DNA of 5,347 bases from Anaerolineales bacterium. GTDB taxonomy: Bacteria; Chloroflexota; Anaerolineae; Anaerolineales; Villigracilaceae. Where the stretch lies: the NCBI GenBank assembly GCA_025938055.1, contig JAICQC010000330.1, positions 1 through 5,347 of the forward strand, given 5' to 3'. How positions within the stretch are numbered: the first letter of the stretch is position 1; each line of letters begins with the position of its first letter. The notes beneath the pieces were generated by a model that was not told where the DNA came from, did not search any database, and saw only the letters and a list, made by a program, of their open reading frames with translations. This document shows positions 1-5,347 of this stretch, piece after piece. The position numbers and the translations under genes are program-made.

Positions 1-393
1 ATCATACATCAGGATGTCATTAGGAGTGGCGCTAACGGTGCCGCTCTCGAGGAGAACAGCTTCCGAAAATACCATGAGTGCTGTATTAGAATCCACAAAG
101 GCAAATGCCGTTAGATCGGGTCCACTCAGCAAGCCCTCATCCGAACCCTGGAAGATCATCTGCCAGTTCGTGCCGTCGAACTTCAGGATATCGTCATCCG
201 CGTAGCCCACTCCACCGACCGTCCCACTACCATCCAGCGAAATATACACTGGGGCAGCAGGCGTGGGGGCGGCGTATGTTACCGCAGGGATGAGAAACGA
301 GGCGAGCAGGGCAAGGATGAAAAAATACCTGACAGGGTTTGCCCATTTCGAGCTTTTGAACGAACGAACTTTCATGTGAAACGTGTTAGACAT
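1..393 (-). CDS. Secreted repeat protein with signal peptide, 3' end cut by window edge
   Basis: This open frame runs from ATG at 393 to the window edge without a stop, giving 131 residues of a longer protein. Residues 1-20 are basic (KVRSFKSSKW), about 22-36 form a hydrophobic core (YFFILALLASFLIP), and VTYA-AP at 38-43 fits a signal peptidase I site, so the product is probably exported. The mature part starts with a Pro/Ala-rich linker and then a beta-rich unit: SLDGSGTVGG (52-61), DDDILKFDG (66-74), W77, FQGSDEGL (81-88), DLTAFAFVDS (93-102), then DILMYD (126-131). The DIL-x-[FY]-D motif recurs 58 residues apart, which suggests tandem repeats. I recall similar repeats in large extracellular proteins of Chloroflexota and other environmental bacteria; their function is unknown to me. 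The ATG overlaps the sulfotransferase stop by 8 bases (ATGTCTAA). It is preceded by AGAAAGG with 8-base spacing, which favours this start over ATG 375, which has no such site. Confidence 0.8.
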   Translation of the reverse strand, partial: MSNTFHMKVRSFKSSKWANPVRYFFILALLASFLIPAVTYAAPTPAAPVYISLDGSGTVGGVGYADDDILKFDGTNWQMIFQGSDEGLLSGPDLTAFAFVDSNTALMVFSEAVLLESGTVSATPNDILMYD

Positions 394-1393
394 ATTGTTT
401 ACCTTTCTCGAAAGAATTTTCGGATAACAGGCGGGAGCGTGGGATTGGTTCGCCCCGCGTGATTTGTAGATTCGTTAAAACGATCCAGCCAAGCATTCGT
501 AACAGGCTGGCGGGCAGCAGCCGGCCGTAGAACTTGAGCAATTCCCCGGCTGATAATTTGACCTCCTGCTTTTGGTAGCCAAACCGCTGCATGAATTTCC
601 CCGTGAACATTTGGATATACAGAATTTCCAGATTCGATAAAACCTCCCGATAACGTCCAACGGGCTTCTTTGAGATCTTGCCCGGTTCGATCCTTTCGAA
701 TGAGCTGTTGCCTCCAACATTGGTATGTTCGGCGGCGCCGCTCATGCTCATCATCTCAGGGGCGAACTCCTCCCCGATAAACGCACAGACATCCTTCATC
801 ACACCTTCCGGGTCACGGGTAATGTCTTCAAAGCAGACGATTTTATACTGATTTGGGTAGCGCTTCAGGTTGCGGAGTGCACGGTTCATGGAAAATAACC
901 AGCGCCCGGTGGAACCGCCCAGCCGGGGGTTGTCACGCCCGTGGCGCTTACGAACCGAAGCATAGCGGTCGCGCGGATCGCGGATCATGTGGATGATTTT
1001 TGCATTCGGGTACTCACGAAAAACGCGATCGGCGTAATGTTCGGTGTGCAGCGATTTATCTCCCCAGCGTGGTTTGCCGAGACGCTCGGCATTGTGCAGG
1101 TGGAACAGAGAGAAAAGCTTTCCATAGCTGGGTGTGCCGCCGTCCAGGAACTCATGGCGAATGCGCTCTGCATCCGGCTTGAGATGTCTCATCCTGTTAT
1201 AGCGAGCCATATCCGAAAGGCAGCGCTCAAAATTGGCGGTCTCGTGTAGATCGCCATAACGCTCATGAAAATAGCGCCACATATTTGTCCGCCGGACCAT
1301 GGAGATGTTGGGATGCGAAGCCAGCAGCGCGAACATCAGGCTCGTGCCACTGCGGTCTGGACCGGCGATAAAAATGGGTGCATCTGAATTCAT
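386..1393 (-). CDS. PAPS-dependent sulfotransferase (Sulfotransfer_3-like)
   Basis: The predicted enzyme transfers sulfate from PAPS to a hydroxyl, most likely on a glycan or lipid given the adjacent glycosyltransferase. Numbering from ATG 1393 (335 residues), the N-terminal strand and 5'-phosphosulfate loop IFIAGPDRSGTS occupies 7-18. RWGDKS is at 109-114, and the 3'-phosphate-binding region IIHMIRDPRDRYAS is at 133-146, with R138 and S146 as likely contacts. CFEDI (187-191) matches the usual 'yEDL' element, GNSSF is at 228-232, and VGRYRE (245-250) matches the late conserved motif. The length suits the family. The frame is open up to ATG 1450, which would give 354 residues and a 17-base overlap with the glycosyltransferase gene. 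ATG 1393 has TAGGAG 8 bases upstream, ATG 1450 has no such site, and the fold begins right after 1393, so I chose 1393. The tail (about 285-311) is hydrophobic to amphipathic and might associate with the membrane. The acceptor is not determinable. Confidence 0.9.
   Translation of the reverse strand: MNSDAPIFIAGPDRSGTSLMFALLASHPNISMVRRTNMWRYFHERYGDLHETANFERCLSDMARYNRMRHLKPDAERIRHEFLDGGTPSYGKLFSLFHLHNAERLGKPRWGDKSLHTEHYADRVFREYPNAKIIHMIRDPRDRYASVRKRHGRDNPRLGGSTGRWLFSMNRALRNLKRYPNQYKIVCFEDITRDPEGVMKDVCAFIGEEFAPEMMSMSGAAEHTNVGGNSSFERIEPGKISKKPVGRYREVLSNLEILYIQMFTGKFMQRFGYQKQEVKLSAGELLKFYGRLLPASLLRMLGWIVLTNLQITRGEPIPRSRLLSENSFEKGKQYV
402..408 (-). promoter_or_regulatory. Ribosome binding site for the secreted repeat protein
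   Basis: On the minus strand the bases read AGAAAGG, 8 bases before ATG 393. The site lies inside the last codons of the sulfotransferase gene, so translation of the two genes is probably coupled. It supports ATG 393 as the start and supports this being a real gene. Confidence 0.6.
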
Positions 1394-1401
1394 TAATTTT
1401 G

Positions 1402-1407
1402 CTCCTA
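1402..1407 (-). promoter_or_regulatory. Ribosome binding site deciding the sulfotransferase start
   Basis: The minus strand reads TAGGAG, 8 bases before ATG 1393. It is the clearest Shine-Dalgarno site in the window. It lies in the 40-base gap after the glycosyltransferase stop, and it moves the sulfotransferase start 57 bases downstream of the longest possible frame. Confidence 0.75.
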
Positions 1408-1433
1408 AAGATAAGGTCGACAGTTCAGGGTGA

Positions 1434-2666
1434 TCAACCTCTCTCTTCATGGGTCGGGTTCAAATCCAGGCGGGGCTGCTTGACTTCCTTATTGTCTGCA
1501 AGTAGATCGTGGTATAGAGAAACATAACGATCAGCAATAAAGTCGAGGCTGTACCTGCTTTCTATCGTCTTGCGTGCAGCTTTGCCTATCTGTTCACGCA
1601 GTTCAGGCTGCTCAAGCAGCAACGCTACGGCGTTTGCAAGCGATTTGGGGTCGCCCGCGCTAAATACTAGACCGTTTTGGGCGTGTTCGGTTACATGCAA
1701 ATTGGCAGGAATATTTGAAACCACCACAGGCAAACCGCAGGTCATTGCTTCGAGGAGAGCATTGGAGTGACCTTCCGCCCGGGAGGGCAGGACAAAAATA
1801 TCAGCTTTCTGCAAATAGTCGAAGACCCGATCGGTCATTCCTACAAAATCCACCTGTTGCGCGATTCCCAGCTTTTCTGCCTGGTTGACCAGGGTATCCC
1901 GCAGCGGCCCATCCCCCAGCAACTGCAAGCGAAGTTTAAGAACTGGGTACTGGCTGGACAGCTGTTGAAAAGCCGTCAGCAGCACATCCAGCCCCTTTTG
2001 TTCATGGAGCCGTCCTACGAAGACCAGGCGGACCGGATCGTGTAGCCCAAAATCTACTTTCGCGGGGATCGAATCGGTCTCGACGCCATTGGGGATGTGC
2101 GTGATCCTGTCAGCGGGCACGCCTGCCTCGAGTAATTCCTGTACAATGGCTTGACTCGTAGCAACGAAACGGTCACTTTGCAGAGCCAAGGGCAGCAGAA
2201 AACGCGATAAGGGCAGTTGCTGGCCCATGCGCATCTTGCGGATGTCACTTGCCTGCCCACTGTTTGCCAGCTTCACCACGCTCTTGCGATGAAACCAGCG
2301 GGCTGCAAGGACGGCTACTGCGGCATGATAGTTCAACCCATGCACGTGCAGAATCTCATAGTCCGCGCGCCGGCGCCACAAATACCAGAACAGGGAGAGC
2401 ATATAGAGATATCCACCGAAACGACGAAGCCCCCTGAGTCCAAACATTTCCCATAACGTCTGGTTGCGGAAAACGCGAATGCCATCCAGAACCTCGTGTT
2501 GGGGTGTTCCCCTGAACCACCAGCCCGTCACAATTTCAGCCCGAACATTCTTTTCGTGCAATGTCCGGGCAAGTTTGTGTGCCTGTCTTTCTGCTCCGCC
2601 CACCCACGGATAGAACAACCGCACCACCATGTGTACACGCAACGGGTTCAACTCACTCCATTCCAT
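1434..2666 (-). CDS. GT4-family glycosyltransferase (GT-B fold)
   Basis: This is a predicted cytoplasmic or membrane-peripheral retaining glycosyltransferase using a nucleotide-activated sugar. It has 410 residues, normal for the family. The N-terminal Rossmann domain has LRVHMVVRLFYPWVGGAERQ (9-28), with the glycine-rich acceptor-side loop GGAERQ, and HVHG (107-110). IPNGVE (191-196) leads into the C-terminal donor domain. There VFVGRLHEQKG (215-225), LLGDGP (249-254) and FVG (274-276) precede the donor-binding EX7E motif, E298 and E306 within PSRAEGHSNALLEAM (294-308). All hallmark residues are intact. A hydrophobic, then arginine-rich stretch at about 84-100 may help it sit on the membrane. 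ATG 2666 lies 8 bases after the stop of the kinase/APH gene and has no good Shine-Dalgarno site, so initiation is probably coupled; TTG 2642 (codon 9) is a weaker alternative. The sugar and acceptor are unknown. The family is common in exopolysaccharide, O-antigen and glycolipid synthesis. Confidence 0.93.
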   Translation of the reverse strand: MEWSELNPLRVHMVVRLFYPWVGGAERQAHKLARTLHEKNVRAEIVTGWWFRGTPQHEVLDGIRVFRNQTLWEMFGLRGLRRFGGYLYMLSLFWYLWRRRADYEILHVHGLNYHAAVAVLAARWFHRKSVVKLANSGQASDIRKMRMGQQLPLSRFLLPLALQSDRFVATSQAIVQELLEAGVPADRITHIPNGVETDSIPAKVDFGLHDPVRLVFVGRLHEQKGLDVLLTAFQQLSSQYPVLKLRLQLLGDGPLRDTLVNQAEKLGIAQQVDFVGMTDRVFDYLQKADIFVLPSRAEGHSNALLEAMTCGLPVVVSNIPANLHVTEHAQNGLVFSAGDPKSLANAVALLLEQPELREQIGKAARKTIESRYSLDFIADRYVSLYHDLLADNKEVKQPRLDLNPTHEERG

Positions 2667-2674
2667 ATCGCAGG

Positions 2675-4615
2675 CTAGATCGAGAGTAAACTATTCAGCC
2701 GCAGTAATTTGTCGGGATTGTTCATCACCCAATCCGCCTGCCCTACAGCATCACGGGCAGAGATCAGCTTACGAGCCGGTCCACCGGTCTCAAAGTATGA
2801 ATTCCAGTAGATCAGTGAAGCGCGCAGTTTGTGGAATCTCCATACCAGAGGCAGGAACTGCCATTCATCATCACTAATCGGATATGCAGACTGATACCCC
2901 TGCAGAAAATTACGAATGCTCTCAAAATTATAGGTTCCGCCTTTATACCGTAAGCGGGAAAGTGCCGAGACCAGATCGCTGAGCCGCCATTCGAGCCGAG
3001 ACGACTCAAAGTCAATCGGTGTGACCACATCTCTGTCAAAGACAATGTTATGCAGACCATAATCCCCGTGAATAATCAAACGAGTCAATGCAGAACTGCG
3101 CAGGGTTTCATCGACCTGGGTCAGTTCATCGAGAACGTACTGGCAATTCTGTACCAGCCAACTGGCATGTCTTTTATCATCTTCATCGCGGAGAGATCGC
3201 GATTTTTCCTTCATCTCATCCACTTTGGCAGAATGCCAGGCAAGATTCCGCCGCCAGTCACCTGTATACGATACGAATCCGAGGTGGTGCCAACCATCAG
3301 GCATGAACCCAGCCAGGGCGCTATGCAGTCGACCCATTGTCTCACCCGCAACTTTCATTAATTTATGGCGGTACGATGGGGGGACAAAACTCAATGAATA
3401 GTTCGTTCCATCCACAAAGTCGAATAATGCGTAATTCCCGCTGTCCAGGCTGACAAAGTTATCACCAGCCGGGGACGTGGTCAGCCGAGGTCCCGGAAAG
3501 CCCAGTTCTGTCAACCGCTCCAAAATGGAATGACTGTAAATAATGGTGGGAGTTTCGAGGCGCGCACGGTAGCGTTTGATGACCTTCCTGCCTGCGGAAG
3601 TGTTCAACATCAGGTTGCGGGTCCGTCTGCTCAGAGGCAAATTGGATGGCGACTCAAGCAATTTCAGCCCCAAACGGTCCACCACGGTTTGGACAGTTTC
3701 CATTTCTATGTCGAGGGAACGCACCCTGGATTTGACGAATTCAGACAACCTGGAAGGTCGCGGCAAATGAGGGATCCACGGGACCGTGGTCTTCCACGAA
3801 GGCACGACATTTCCGTTCAGGCTCCCAGGTTGTTCGCGATCAGCAGTAGAAATATTCATAAGTTTATTCCGTAATTCCTCACGAGTGCGGTCGAGATCAT
3901 TATGACTGTTGTCCACCTCCACTACCTGCCAGCCTCTGACTCTGATGTGATTTAAGGTGGTGTTCAGTGCGCGGTTCGAGCTTTCCAAATAGCGTCTCAA
4001 GTCCGCGCGAGGTCTATTGTGATAATGTTTCCAAACTCCACGCAGGATGATACGTTCCTCACAGATATCAATTGGCACACACGGGACGATCACAATGCCG
4101 GGCTGTGGAATCAGATCCATATAAAAACGGACTTGCGCCGGGTCAGGCATTTCAACGATGGAGGCATGTAAATGCACAACTCGGTGGACAAAACCATCAT
4201 CAAAAATCAGAGCCTCGCCCGGTTGCAGGTACGCACTAAGAAACTCATAACGTCCCATCAGATGATGGAACCAGTGCAAAACGCGCCTCTCCCGGAGGGC
4301 AGCCCCGGCGGGACGGCGCTCCTGAGACTCTGACACATACTTGATCAACTGTTTGTGCTTATGCAGAAACGTACGCCGATAGGCAAAACTTGTGAGATTG
4401 AAGACTTGCCATAGTAGTTGTTTACGATAGCGGGCAGGAGCGAGACGGTTGACCAACTTGCCTAAAAAGGTTCGCCCAGCTAATGGTCGCGCTGCCTCTA
4501 TCACTGAGTAGGCATGGATTCCCTGCTCCTTAAAAATCTCAAGCGCCGCCTTCATAAGCGTCGTTTTGCCGGCCCCGGGAGTTCCAAAAAATTCGACGAT
4601 CAATGGCTTCGTCAC
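2675..4615 (-). CDS. Two-domain protein: P-loop kinase fused to APH-type phosphotransferase
   Basis: This 646-residue protein joins two phosphotransfer folds. The N-terminal domain (about 1-255) is a nucleoside/adenylate-kinase-like P-loop domain: VEFFGTPGAGKTTL at 7-20 is Walker A, LIFDDGF at 136-142 is the Walker-B/DR-like strand, and IVIVPCVPIDICEERI (174-189) fits the later core strand. A Pro/Ser-rich linker (about 256-295) follows. The C-terminal domain (about 330-620) is APH/choline-kinase-like, with probable ATP lysine K347 (VIKRY), brxHGDxxxxN-type loop HGDYGLHN at 516-523 (D518, N523) and metal-binding IDFES at 534-538 (D535). Key residues of both domains look intact. The start is GTG 4615, 4 bases into the upstream stop (GTGA); the Walker motif at residue 11 fixes the start to within a few codons. 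A role in phosphorylating a sugar, lipid or other precursor of the surface polymer is inferred from context only. It is not a recognisable antibiotic-resistance enzyme. Confidence 0.85.
   Translation of the reverse strand: MTKPLIVEFFGTPGAGKTTLMKAALEIFKEQGIHAYSVIEAARPLAGRTFLGKLVNRLAPARYRKQLLWQVFNLTSFAYRRTFLHKHKQLIKYVSESQERRPAGAALRERRVLHWFHHLMGRYEFLSAYLQPGEALIFDDGFVHRVVHLHASIVEMPDPAQVRFYMDLIPQPGIVIVPCVPIDICEERIILRGVWKHYHNRPRADLRRYLESSNRALNTTLNHIRVRGWQVVEVDNSHNDLDRTREELRNKLMNISTADREQPGSLNGNVVPSWKTTVPWIPHLPRPSRLSEFVKSRVRSLDIEMETVQTVVDRLGLKLLESPSNLPLSRRTRNLMLNTSAGRKVIKRYRARLETPTIIYSHSILERLTELGFPGPRLTTSPAGDNFVSLDSGNYALFDFVDGTNYSLSFVPPSYRHKLMKVAGETMGRLHSALAGFMPDGWHHLGFVSYTGDWRRNLAWHSAKVDEMKEKSRSLRDEDDKRHASWLVQNCQYVLDELTQVDETLRSSALTRLIIHGDYGLHNIVFDRDVVTPIDFESSRLEWRLSDLVSALSRLRYKGGTYNFESIRNFLQGYQSAYPISDDEWQFLPLVWRFHKLRASLIYWNSYFETGGPARKLISARDAVGQADWVMNNPDKLLRLNSLLSI
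4612..4615 (-). other. GTGA stop/start overlap coupling the two kinase genes
   Basis: On the minus strand the GTG start of the kinase/APH gene and the TGA stop of the upstream kinase share four bases. Only a weak purine stretch (GGGAAA, 4 bases before the TCCT preceding GTG) precedes it. Reinitiation by the terminating ribosome is the likely mode, giving linked amounts of the two proteins. Confidence 0.8.
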
Positions 4616-5343
4616 AGGATTTCCCAGATTCTTCTCTTCAGTTGCAGAAACACCTCATCGAAAGGCAAATCTGCATTGAGATTGATGCTGCGCAGGCGCT
4701 TCGAGTCAGACTCAGCCAAGGTGGCAAGCTGACCGATCAACTGACTCTTGGCTTTGAGCACCTCGGGCTGATGGTCGGGCTTGCGCTGGAACGACACTTC
4801 AGGGCTGACATCCAGGATGACTAAATACTCCGGCGGACGGATCTTGTCGTAGAGTCTTTTTTCAGCCCTTGCCATTCTTCGCGCTACCGGACCAGCGCTC
4901 TCGCCAGCCAGAGCAGTGATCCTCGAGCCGTCCATGCGACCAGCACCGAGGTCCGGATCGAGCACCTCCAGCGGATACCGGTCAAAGATCACGACCGACC
5001 CCGCCATGGATTTTTTCATGCCAGCTAGATAACGCTCATAACGATCCTGCGCCAGCGACAGATGATGCCAGTACAGGAAAAAATCCCGCAAGCCGGCAAA
5101 CGGTTTGGAAACAAAGTTCTGCTCACCGAATACCTTTGCAGTTGTGCGGTGCGCGCGGCGGAAGGCCCGGTAAACGGAGTACAGGGAGATACTGCGCCGG
5201 GAGGGAAGTTTGCTTCCAAGGTAATAGACATGCGTGTCTATCTTCCAGGAGAACCATTTCGTCAGTGCCTTGCACATGGTGGATTTCCCGGCACCATCGG
5301 CGCCGATCAACGCCAGGGTCAGGCCGCCGGCTGTCAACGTCAT
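4612..5343 (-). CDS. Thymidylate-kinase-like P-loop kinase, 5' end possibly outside the window
   Basis: This is a predicted ATP-dependent small-molecule kinase of the P-loop nucleoside/thymidylate kinase superfamily. From ATG 5343 it has 243 residues. LALIGADGAGKST (10-22) is Walker A, VVIFDRYP (117-124) carries the DR-Y motif, and PPEYLVILDVSPEVSFQRK (170-188) is the characteristic core strand plus the arginine-containing lid start. The lid is short (about 187-200). The REPGGT-type substrate motif of true dTMP kinases is missing; YYLGSKLPSRRS lies at about the expected position. It is also longer than the usual ~210 residues and sits with glycan genes, so I do not call it tmk. Only four bases lie beyond the ATG and the frame is still open there, so the ribosome site cannot be judged. 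The gene may start further right, or the domain may be the end of a larger protein. Similar kinase/APH pairs occur in polysaccharide loci, but the substrate is unknown. Confidence 0.8.
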   Translation of the reverse strand: MTLTAGGLTLALIGADGAGKSTMCKALTKWFSWKIDTHVYYLGSKLPSRRSISLYSVYRAFRRAHRTTAKVFGEQNFVSKPFAGLRDFFLYWHHLSLAQDRYERYLAGMKKSMAGSVVIFDRYPLEVLDPDLGAGRMDGSRITALAGESAGPVARRMARAEKRLYDKIRPPEYLVILDVSPEVSFQRKPDHQPEVLKAKSQLIGQLATLAESDSKRLRSINLNADLPFDEVFLQLKRRIWEIL

Positions 5344-5347
5344 CTTG

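Follow-up and report, generated by a model that had tools for sequence, protein, structure and literature searches.

A P-loop kinase and an APH-fold kinase, fused or encoded side by side, in a conserved Wzx/Wzy-type polysaccharide locus found mainly in Anaerolineae

The stretch of DNA analyzed here (the window; 5,347 bases, contig JAICQC010000330.1 of the Anaerolineales bacterium assembly GCA_025938055.1) contains five described genes, all on the minus strand. One of them, at 2675..4615, is an unbroken open reading frame (ORF) of 646 amino acids with a GTG start, which consists of a P-loop kinase domain (KIN), a linker and an APH-fold kinase domain (APH), as defined by the ORF itself, family matches, relatives and a structure model. 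On balance, we favor the view that this kinase pair phosphorylates a sugar-type precursor or the repeat unit of a probably sulfated exopolysaccharide. The genes belong to a conserved Wzx/Wzy-dependent polysaccharide cluster, an exopolysaccharide locus of a type that is already known, whose new part is the uncharacterized kinase module; its genomic context is more telling than the fusion itself. Neither the fusion nor the locus is described in the literature surveyed (open papers), and the statement of the first-pass annotation of this DNA that no function has been characterized for such an arrangement holds within that literature.

The window by itself contains, of the genes of a Wzx/Wzy-type locus, only a GT4 glycosyltransferase and a sulfotransferase. 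It could reveal neither the locus, nor the pairing of APH with GT4, nor the architecture of the gene upstream of the fusion (C2). A first scan of genome contigs with the single window protein confirmed no match, and a plasmid search gave only two distant APH matches, which covered 46% and 42% of the query. Repeating the genome scan with an alignment yielded 34 loci. Those numbered L001-L016 are true relatives, whereas L017-L034, 18 loci in which only short APH stretches matched, were left out. L016 lacks the KIN side, and neighbor counts are therefore based on the 15 other loci. KIN and APH are adjacent in all 15. C2 immediately precedes KIN in 13 of the 14 loci that allow the test (L015 begins too late to show it), GT4 directly downstream of APH in 14 of 14 (L003 ends too early), and the gene after GT4 encodes a sulfotransferase in 11 of 12. 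Wzy is found in 12 of the 15 loci (not in L003, L010 and L015) and at least one sulfotransferase in 14 (not in L003). Wzx flippase, Wzy polymerase and glycosyltransferases occur together in relatives with long enough stretches, and the longest loci have the order Wzx, three or four sulfotransferases, Wzy, sulfotransferase, C2, KIN, APH, GT4, sulfotransferase; several of these also encode a large NHL or SLH surface protein. A more diverged copy, L051, from a different genome has retained Wzx, Wzy, sulfotransferases, C2, KIN (101 bits) and APH. It is this regular association with Wzx, Wzy, GT4 and sulfotransferases that places both kinases in the assembly of a probably sulfated polysaccharide. 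The glycan locus assumed by the first-pass annotation is thus borne out, while no evidence was found for a polyprenol carrier.

The fusion has many relatives. Of 5.8 billion proteins searched, 46 were listed, that of the window included, namely 33 full-length fused proteins (window protein counted), two partial fused ones (P0044 and P0046) and 11 with APH only. The other 32 full-length fused relatives share 44-80% identity with the window protein; an assembly artifact or frameshift join was rejected on their account, and the fused form occurs outside this assembly as well. Searching with a KIN profile gave 121 matches, 120 of which are listed. Both protein searches pooled comprise 165 proteins, 36 with both domains (P0044, P0046 and P0163 hold both only in part), 118 with KIN only and 11 with APH only, and some of the single-domain rows may be fragments. 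The searches accept candidates of 0.55 to 1.75 times the query length; the full-length query is blind to stand-alone KIN and the KIN query is blind to 646-amino-acid fusions. Because of this length filter, their totals of fused and split proteins are not comparable, and the loci read from genome records are the better guide to the frequency of the two states. One APH-only protein, P0025, matches residues 267-643 of the fused P0006 at 99% identity and may represent a recent split, a damaged copy or an incomplete gene call.

In the 15 loci, KIN and APH are fused in four (L001, L002, L006 and L008) and encoded by separate genes in 11. Hence, of the domain pair to which the first-pass annotation had drawn attention, the adjacency and the neighbors are conserved across genomes, but the fused architecture is not constant, and its standing as the special feature is not supported. 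A tree of KIN with 168 rows (40 labeled fused, 128 split) requires at least 10 changes between the two states, at least four of which are forced by well-supported branches; when 'split' is assigned only to the 11 loci read from DNA, seven changes are needed, and eight with four more pairs. The tree was built by a quick method with support from the Shimodaira-Hasegawa-like approximate likelihood ratio test only, and gave long-row warnings, including for L006 and L015. A single fusion event is not supported, since the tree needs seven to 10 state changes. Fusion and fission look recurrent in these sequences, which suggests that the two enzymes work together whether tethered or not; the fusion would then only tether two enzymes that are separate chains elsewhere. 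The structure model of the fusion has a mean predicted local distance difference test score (pLDDT) of 93.4 and a predicted template modeling score of 0.61, with segment 260-270 below a pLDDT of 50. The majority residue frequency is 0.29 for residues 251-280, compared to 0.63 for KIN and 0.68 for APH, and residues 256-282 (3770..3850) form a poorly conserved linker. Our reading is that two well-folded domains are joined by a flexible, probably disordered tether, and that their mutual arrangement is left unpredicted by the model.

KIN (residues 5-255, 3851..4603; 399.7 bits against the hidden Markov model (HMM) of its own family) contains the Walker A motif GTPGAGKTT at residues 11-19 (4559..4585) and a Walker-B-like stretch, LIFDDGFVHR, at residues 136-145 (4181..4210) with the putative base D139, an acidic residue 140, H144 and R145. 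In the KIN alignment of 154 rows, the Walker lysine K17 is kept in all 151 rows that have a letter there, D139 and R145 in 153 each, and R188 and R192 in all 154. Thymidylate kinases carry an arginine after the catalytic aspartate, the D-R motif after strand 3. KIN lacks this motif, as an acidic residue replaces the arginine in 154 of 154 rows (D in 89, E in 65, never R). Pfam gives no family above the cut-off for the KIN of the window, only sub-threshold P-loop matches, and the domain is below all curated cut-offs: it scores 11.7 with the thymidylate kinase family PF02223 (cut-off 27) and 12.1 with TIGR00041 (cut-off 83.25). A precomputed PF02223 assignment is present on 10 of 120 listed KIN homologs. 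The adenosine 5'-phosphosulfate (APS) kinase family PF01583 is absent from the 19 families that match the KIN of the window at E <= 1, and it weakly matches five of 16 members of one set of KIN sequences (A4), with a best E-value of 0.011. An hhalign comparison of KIN with the C-terminal part of C2 gave a probability of 93% (E 3.5e-07); KIN is, as judged by this profile comparison, distantly homologous to the thymidylate-kinase-like C-terminal domain of C2. A profile search of the PDB with KIN retrieved mostly Walker A stretches and a few short C-terminal ones among the best 60 of 99 matches. For the structure model of the fusion, APH fills the PDB lists shown, and a viral library lists thymidylate (dTMP) and deoxynucleoside kinases, given without ranges; like these enzymes, KIN is a P-loop kinase.

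Two more specific roles of KIN have to be considered in this light. The first-pass annotation had suggested successive phosphorylations, by which one domain would make a monophosphate and the other would turn it into a diphosphate. Such a relay would suit two kinases on one chain, and KIN is distantly related to a thymidylate-kinase-like domain, thymidylate kinases being enzymes that act on a monophosphate. However, KIN has D or E and never R after the catalytic aspartate, whereas the kinase domain of C2 keeps D-R in 15 of 15 sequences, and in 11 of 15 loci the two kinases are encoded as separate chains. The missing arginine is an argument and not a disproof; we nevertheless consider the relay quite improbable. 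Alternatively, KIN could activate sulfate for the locus as its APS kinase, or serve it as an additional thymidylate kinase, in keeping with a P-loop kinase beside sulfotransferases and with the weak similarity to thymidylate kinases. All 14 KIN genomes searched, however, encode a separate APS kinase and a separate dTMP kinase, both above cut-offs, and therefore do not need KIN in either capacity. Moreover, L015 has an APS kinase gene (L015:3520-4146) in the same locus as KIN; it is located between GT4 and the sulfotransferase, the only such case among the loci read, and this position fits a sulfated product. An identity of KIN as APS kinase or housekeeping thymidylate kinase was thus rejected as largely refuted and has a negligible likelihood.

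APH (residues 283-640, 2696..3769) was assigned by PF01636, HMM and structure search; PF01636 matches residues 333-560 with an E-value of 4.8e-17 and 63 bits, above the cut-off of 23.2. It contains the catalytic loop HGDYGLHN at residues 516-523 (3047..3070) and the metal-binding motif IDFES at residues 534-538 (3002..3016). Among the 46 rows of the APH alignment, the catalytic D518 is kept in 45 of 45 and N523 and D535 each in 44 of 44 rows with a letter at the position, and the β3-lysine, Lys347, in 45 of 46 (one Arg). The first-pass annotation had placed all three motifs of the two domains exactly and had described two unrelated ATP-phosphotransfer domains in one protein, which agrees with the unbroken ORF, the PF01636 match and the Walker A motif. 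It had also called both active sites complete: the conservation of K17 and D518 is in accordance with this, neither domain is degenerate in the homologs examined, and, as far as sequence can tell, both sites are apparently complete and working.

Among the known proteins compared with APH, N-acetylhexosamine 1-kinase NahK, a stand-alone sugar-1-kinase, shares 12% identity with the present protein. The closest known systems include the homoserine kinase ThrB/HSK2 (2ppq), although APH reaches only 37.2 bits with TIGR00938 (cut-off 255.9); according to the available part of one report, HSK2 lacks both the β3-Lys and the αC-Glu (PMC4702295), of which the β3-Lys is kept in the present APH. The spore kinases CotS and YtaA (CotI) with the glycosyl transferases CotSA and YtcC are also among the closest systems. 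The excerpted account of these states that the spore kinases are never found without their glycosyl transferase and that CotSA assembly needs CotS (PMC2860764). By contrast, the window protein has 70.9 bits with the CotS spore coat family TIGR02906, below its cut-off of 172.7, its sites are intact, APH is joined to or beside a P-loop kinase, and no spore gene was recognized with the present module. APH and GT4 are themselves encoded by one ORF in two loci (L011:10708-13038 and L016:3-1904). In view of these fusions and of the parallel to the spore kinases, the substrate or product of GT4 is the likeliest target of APH. The same fusions would also be in line with one or both domains being a non-catalytic scaffold that binds GT4 or the substrate, as was suggested for some spore-coat kinases, and so would the dependence of CotSA on CotS and the frequent loss of catalytic residues that the excerpt reports for spore kinases (PMC2860764). 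The catalytic residues are, however, kept across divergent rows of the present alignments, which makes a scaffold unlikely.

C2 consists of a nucleotidyltransferase (NTase)-like N-terminal domain (NTP_transf_5, a weak match) and a thymidylate-kinase-like C-terminal domain, as in L012:8465-9997. The window holds its 3' part with the latter domain (4612..5346; positions 277-520 of 520 of the C2 HMM), cut at the window end; the window copy being partial, the fold was taken from the L001 copy. The GTG start of the fusion shares four bases with the TGA of C2 (GTGA, 4612..4615, from the ORF coordinates), and C2 and the fusion are therefore probably translationally coupled. Precursor activation is a tentative possibility: APH would make a sugar-1-phosphate (or a phospho-alcohol), the P-loop kinase would phosphorylate a partner molecule (a nucleotide or a metabolite), and the NTase-like domain of C2 would couple or transfer them to give a special activated donor. 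The analog would be the Lic pathway, in which LicA, with its APH fold, works together with LicC/LicD. Against this speak the weak NTP_transf_5 match of C2, the fact that nucleotidyl transfer to sugar 1-phosphates is not usually the work of Pol-beta-type NTases, and the occurrence of C2 without a recognized APH.

We prefer the view of a kinase pair acting on a sugar-type precursor or the repeat unit. APH would transfer phosphate to a hydroxyl group of a small molecule (a sugar or a sugar-like compound), or to a sugar of the lipid-linked repeat unit, its target being something that the adjacent GT4 makes or uses. KIN would phosphorylate a second, probably unphosphorylated, acceptor of the same pathway, and C2 may activate or transfer the product. 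A precedent, by analogy, for a kinase and an NTase-like protein acting one after the other is the NTase-like PsmN, which is needed for the hexose on phosphoserine after kinase action, according to the part of the study available (PMC9266682). The wps-1 cluster of Actinoplanes missouriensis likewise has a kinase-like protein, WpsI, in a Wzx/Wzy cluster with sulfotransferases; in the accessible sections of that report, deletion of wpsI led to squashed sporangia resembling those of a whole-cluster deletion, whereas deletion of wpsB, one of the two sulfotransferase genes, left the sporangia shape normal (PMC13390465). One kinase-like domain is reported there for WpsI compared to two here, and the likeness is one of cluster content.

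Several observations weigh against our interpretation. No sugar-nucleotide gene was recognized among the neighbors scanned. The polymer is probably sulfated as judged from gene content alone; sulfation of the Actinoplanes polymer likewise awaits proof in the part of the report available (PMC13390465). Relatives of APH from spore coats have often lost catalytic residues (PMC2860764). Position 361, where the motif leads one to expect the αC-Glu, is Glu in only four of 46 APH rows; as this position is rarely Glu though the β3-Lys is kept, nucleotide binding by APH may be unusual. L008 has C2 further along the locus and not beside KIN. Finally, not every locus of this type has the kinases, since C2 occurs in some of them with no clear KIN or APH: P-loop neighbors in L073-L076 score 4 to 14 bits with KIN, too weak for an assignment, and no P-loop neighbor was found in the C2 loci L071, L072 and L078.

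The KIN module is rare and patchy. Among 396 genomes of the class to which G004 belongs, seven have a KIN match at an E-value of 1e-10, five of them a strong one; at 1e-20, KIN matches six of 150 genomes from the family of G001 and four of 296 from the class of G005. C2 is present in more genomes than KIN: 13 of the same 396 match it at 1e-15, including all seven with KIN. These counts are lower bounds, since only the best candidates of each genome were scored (6, 18 and 9 per genome in the KIN surveys of 396, 150 and 296 genomes, three in that of C2), and G399, with a 54-bit KIN beside C2 (L077), was missed by the KIN survey of 396 genomes. All five strong genomes of that survey, five of the six and two of the four in the others were already known from the loci, and each of 14 locus genomes has one KIN copy. 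By genome-record labels, the loci come mainly from Anaerolineae, Anaerolineales or Chloroflexi, besides Acidimicrobiia (L006, L010), Nitriliruptorales (L008) and Bryobacterales (L015); by record titles, the locus thus belongs largely to Anaerolineae (Chloroflexota), with some cases in Actinomycetota. L003 lies on a short contig of a metagenome-assembled genome labeled Flavobacteriales, possibly a misbinned Chloroflexota contig.

Downstream of the fusion, the window encodes the GT4 glycosyltransferase (410 amino acids, 1434..2666; PF00534, E 2.2e-41), the sulfotransferase (354 amino acids, 386..1450; PF13469, E 2.7e-28) and the 5' part of a probably exported protein (1..393; hydrophobic N-terminus by eye, 64 bits with the HMM of its relatives). 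Relatives of the latter have about 840-1265 amino acids, with NHL or SLH domains in the two scanned; the large surface protein L009:14365-16929, with NHL repeats and an SLH domain, adjoins a sulfotransferase. Such a protein is a possible glycan carrier or anchor. A conserved protein of about 510 amino acids with a choice-of-anchor Q domain and no Pfam match (L012:14161-15705) is encoded downstream of the locus in L007, L008, L009, L011, L012 and L014. Next to other C2 genes, L075:5543-7246 has a PF24793 domain, similar to the N-terminus of glucosamine inositolphosphorylceramide transferase (E 2.4e-40), beside a Wzx-like protein as well, and L071:6679-8544 is asparagine-synthase-like (weak PF00733, E 0.0022; GATase_7 over cut-off) and directly follows C2, in a locus with no clear KIN or APH.

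The module comprises four apparent phospho- or nucleotidyl-transfer domains (the two of C2, KIN and APH), two of them in one chain, so that two activities could be tested at once with one purified fusion protein. It is tempting, if doubtful, to speculate that the cassette of the APH-fold kinase, an undescribed P-loop kinase family and C2 phosphorylates a core sugar of the repeat unit, and that later glycosylation, sulfation or polymerization depends on, or is gated by, this phosphate. In animals, the sugar kinases Fam20B and POMK control the assembly of glycosaminoglycan and matriglycan, and the cassette would, if this is true, be their bacterial counterpart. As far as the available parts of the reports go, sulfated polysaccharides are called uncommon in bacteria outside cyanobacteria (PMC13390465); sulfated exopolymers are reported from Pontiella (PMC7356697), and sulfated glycoconjugates are reported as common in granular sludge (PMC10483923). 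The conserved locus of the Anaerolineae would give a genetic handle on producers of sulfated polymers.
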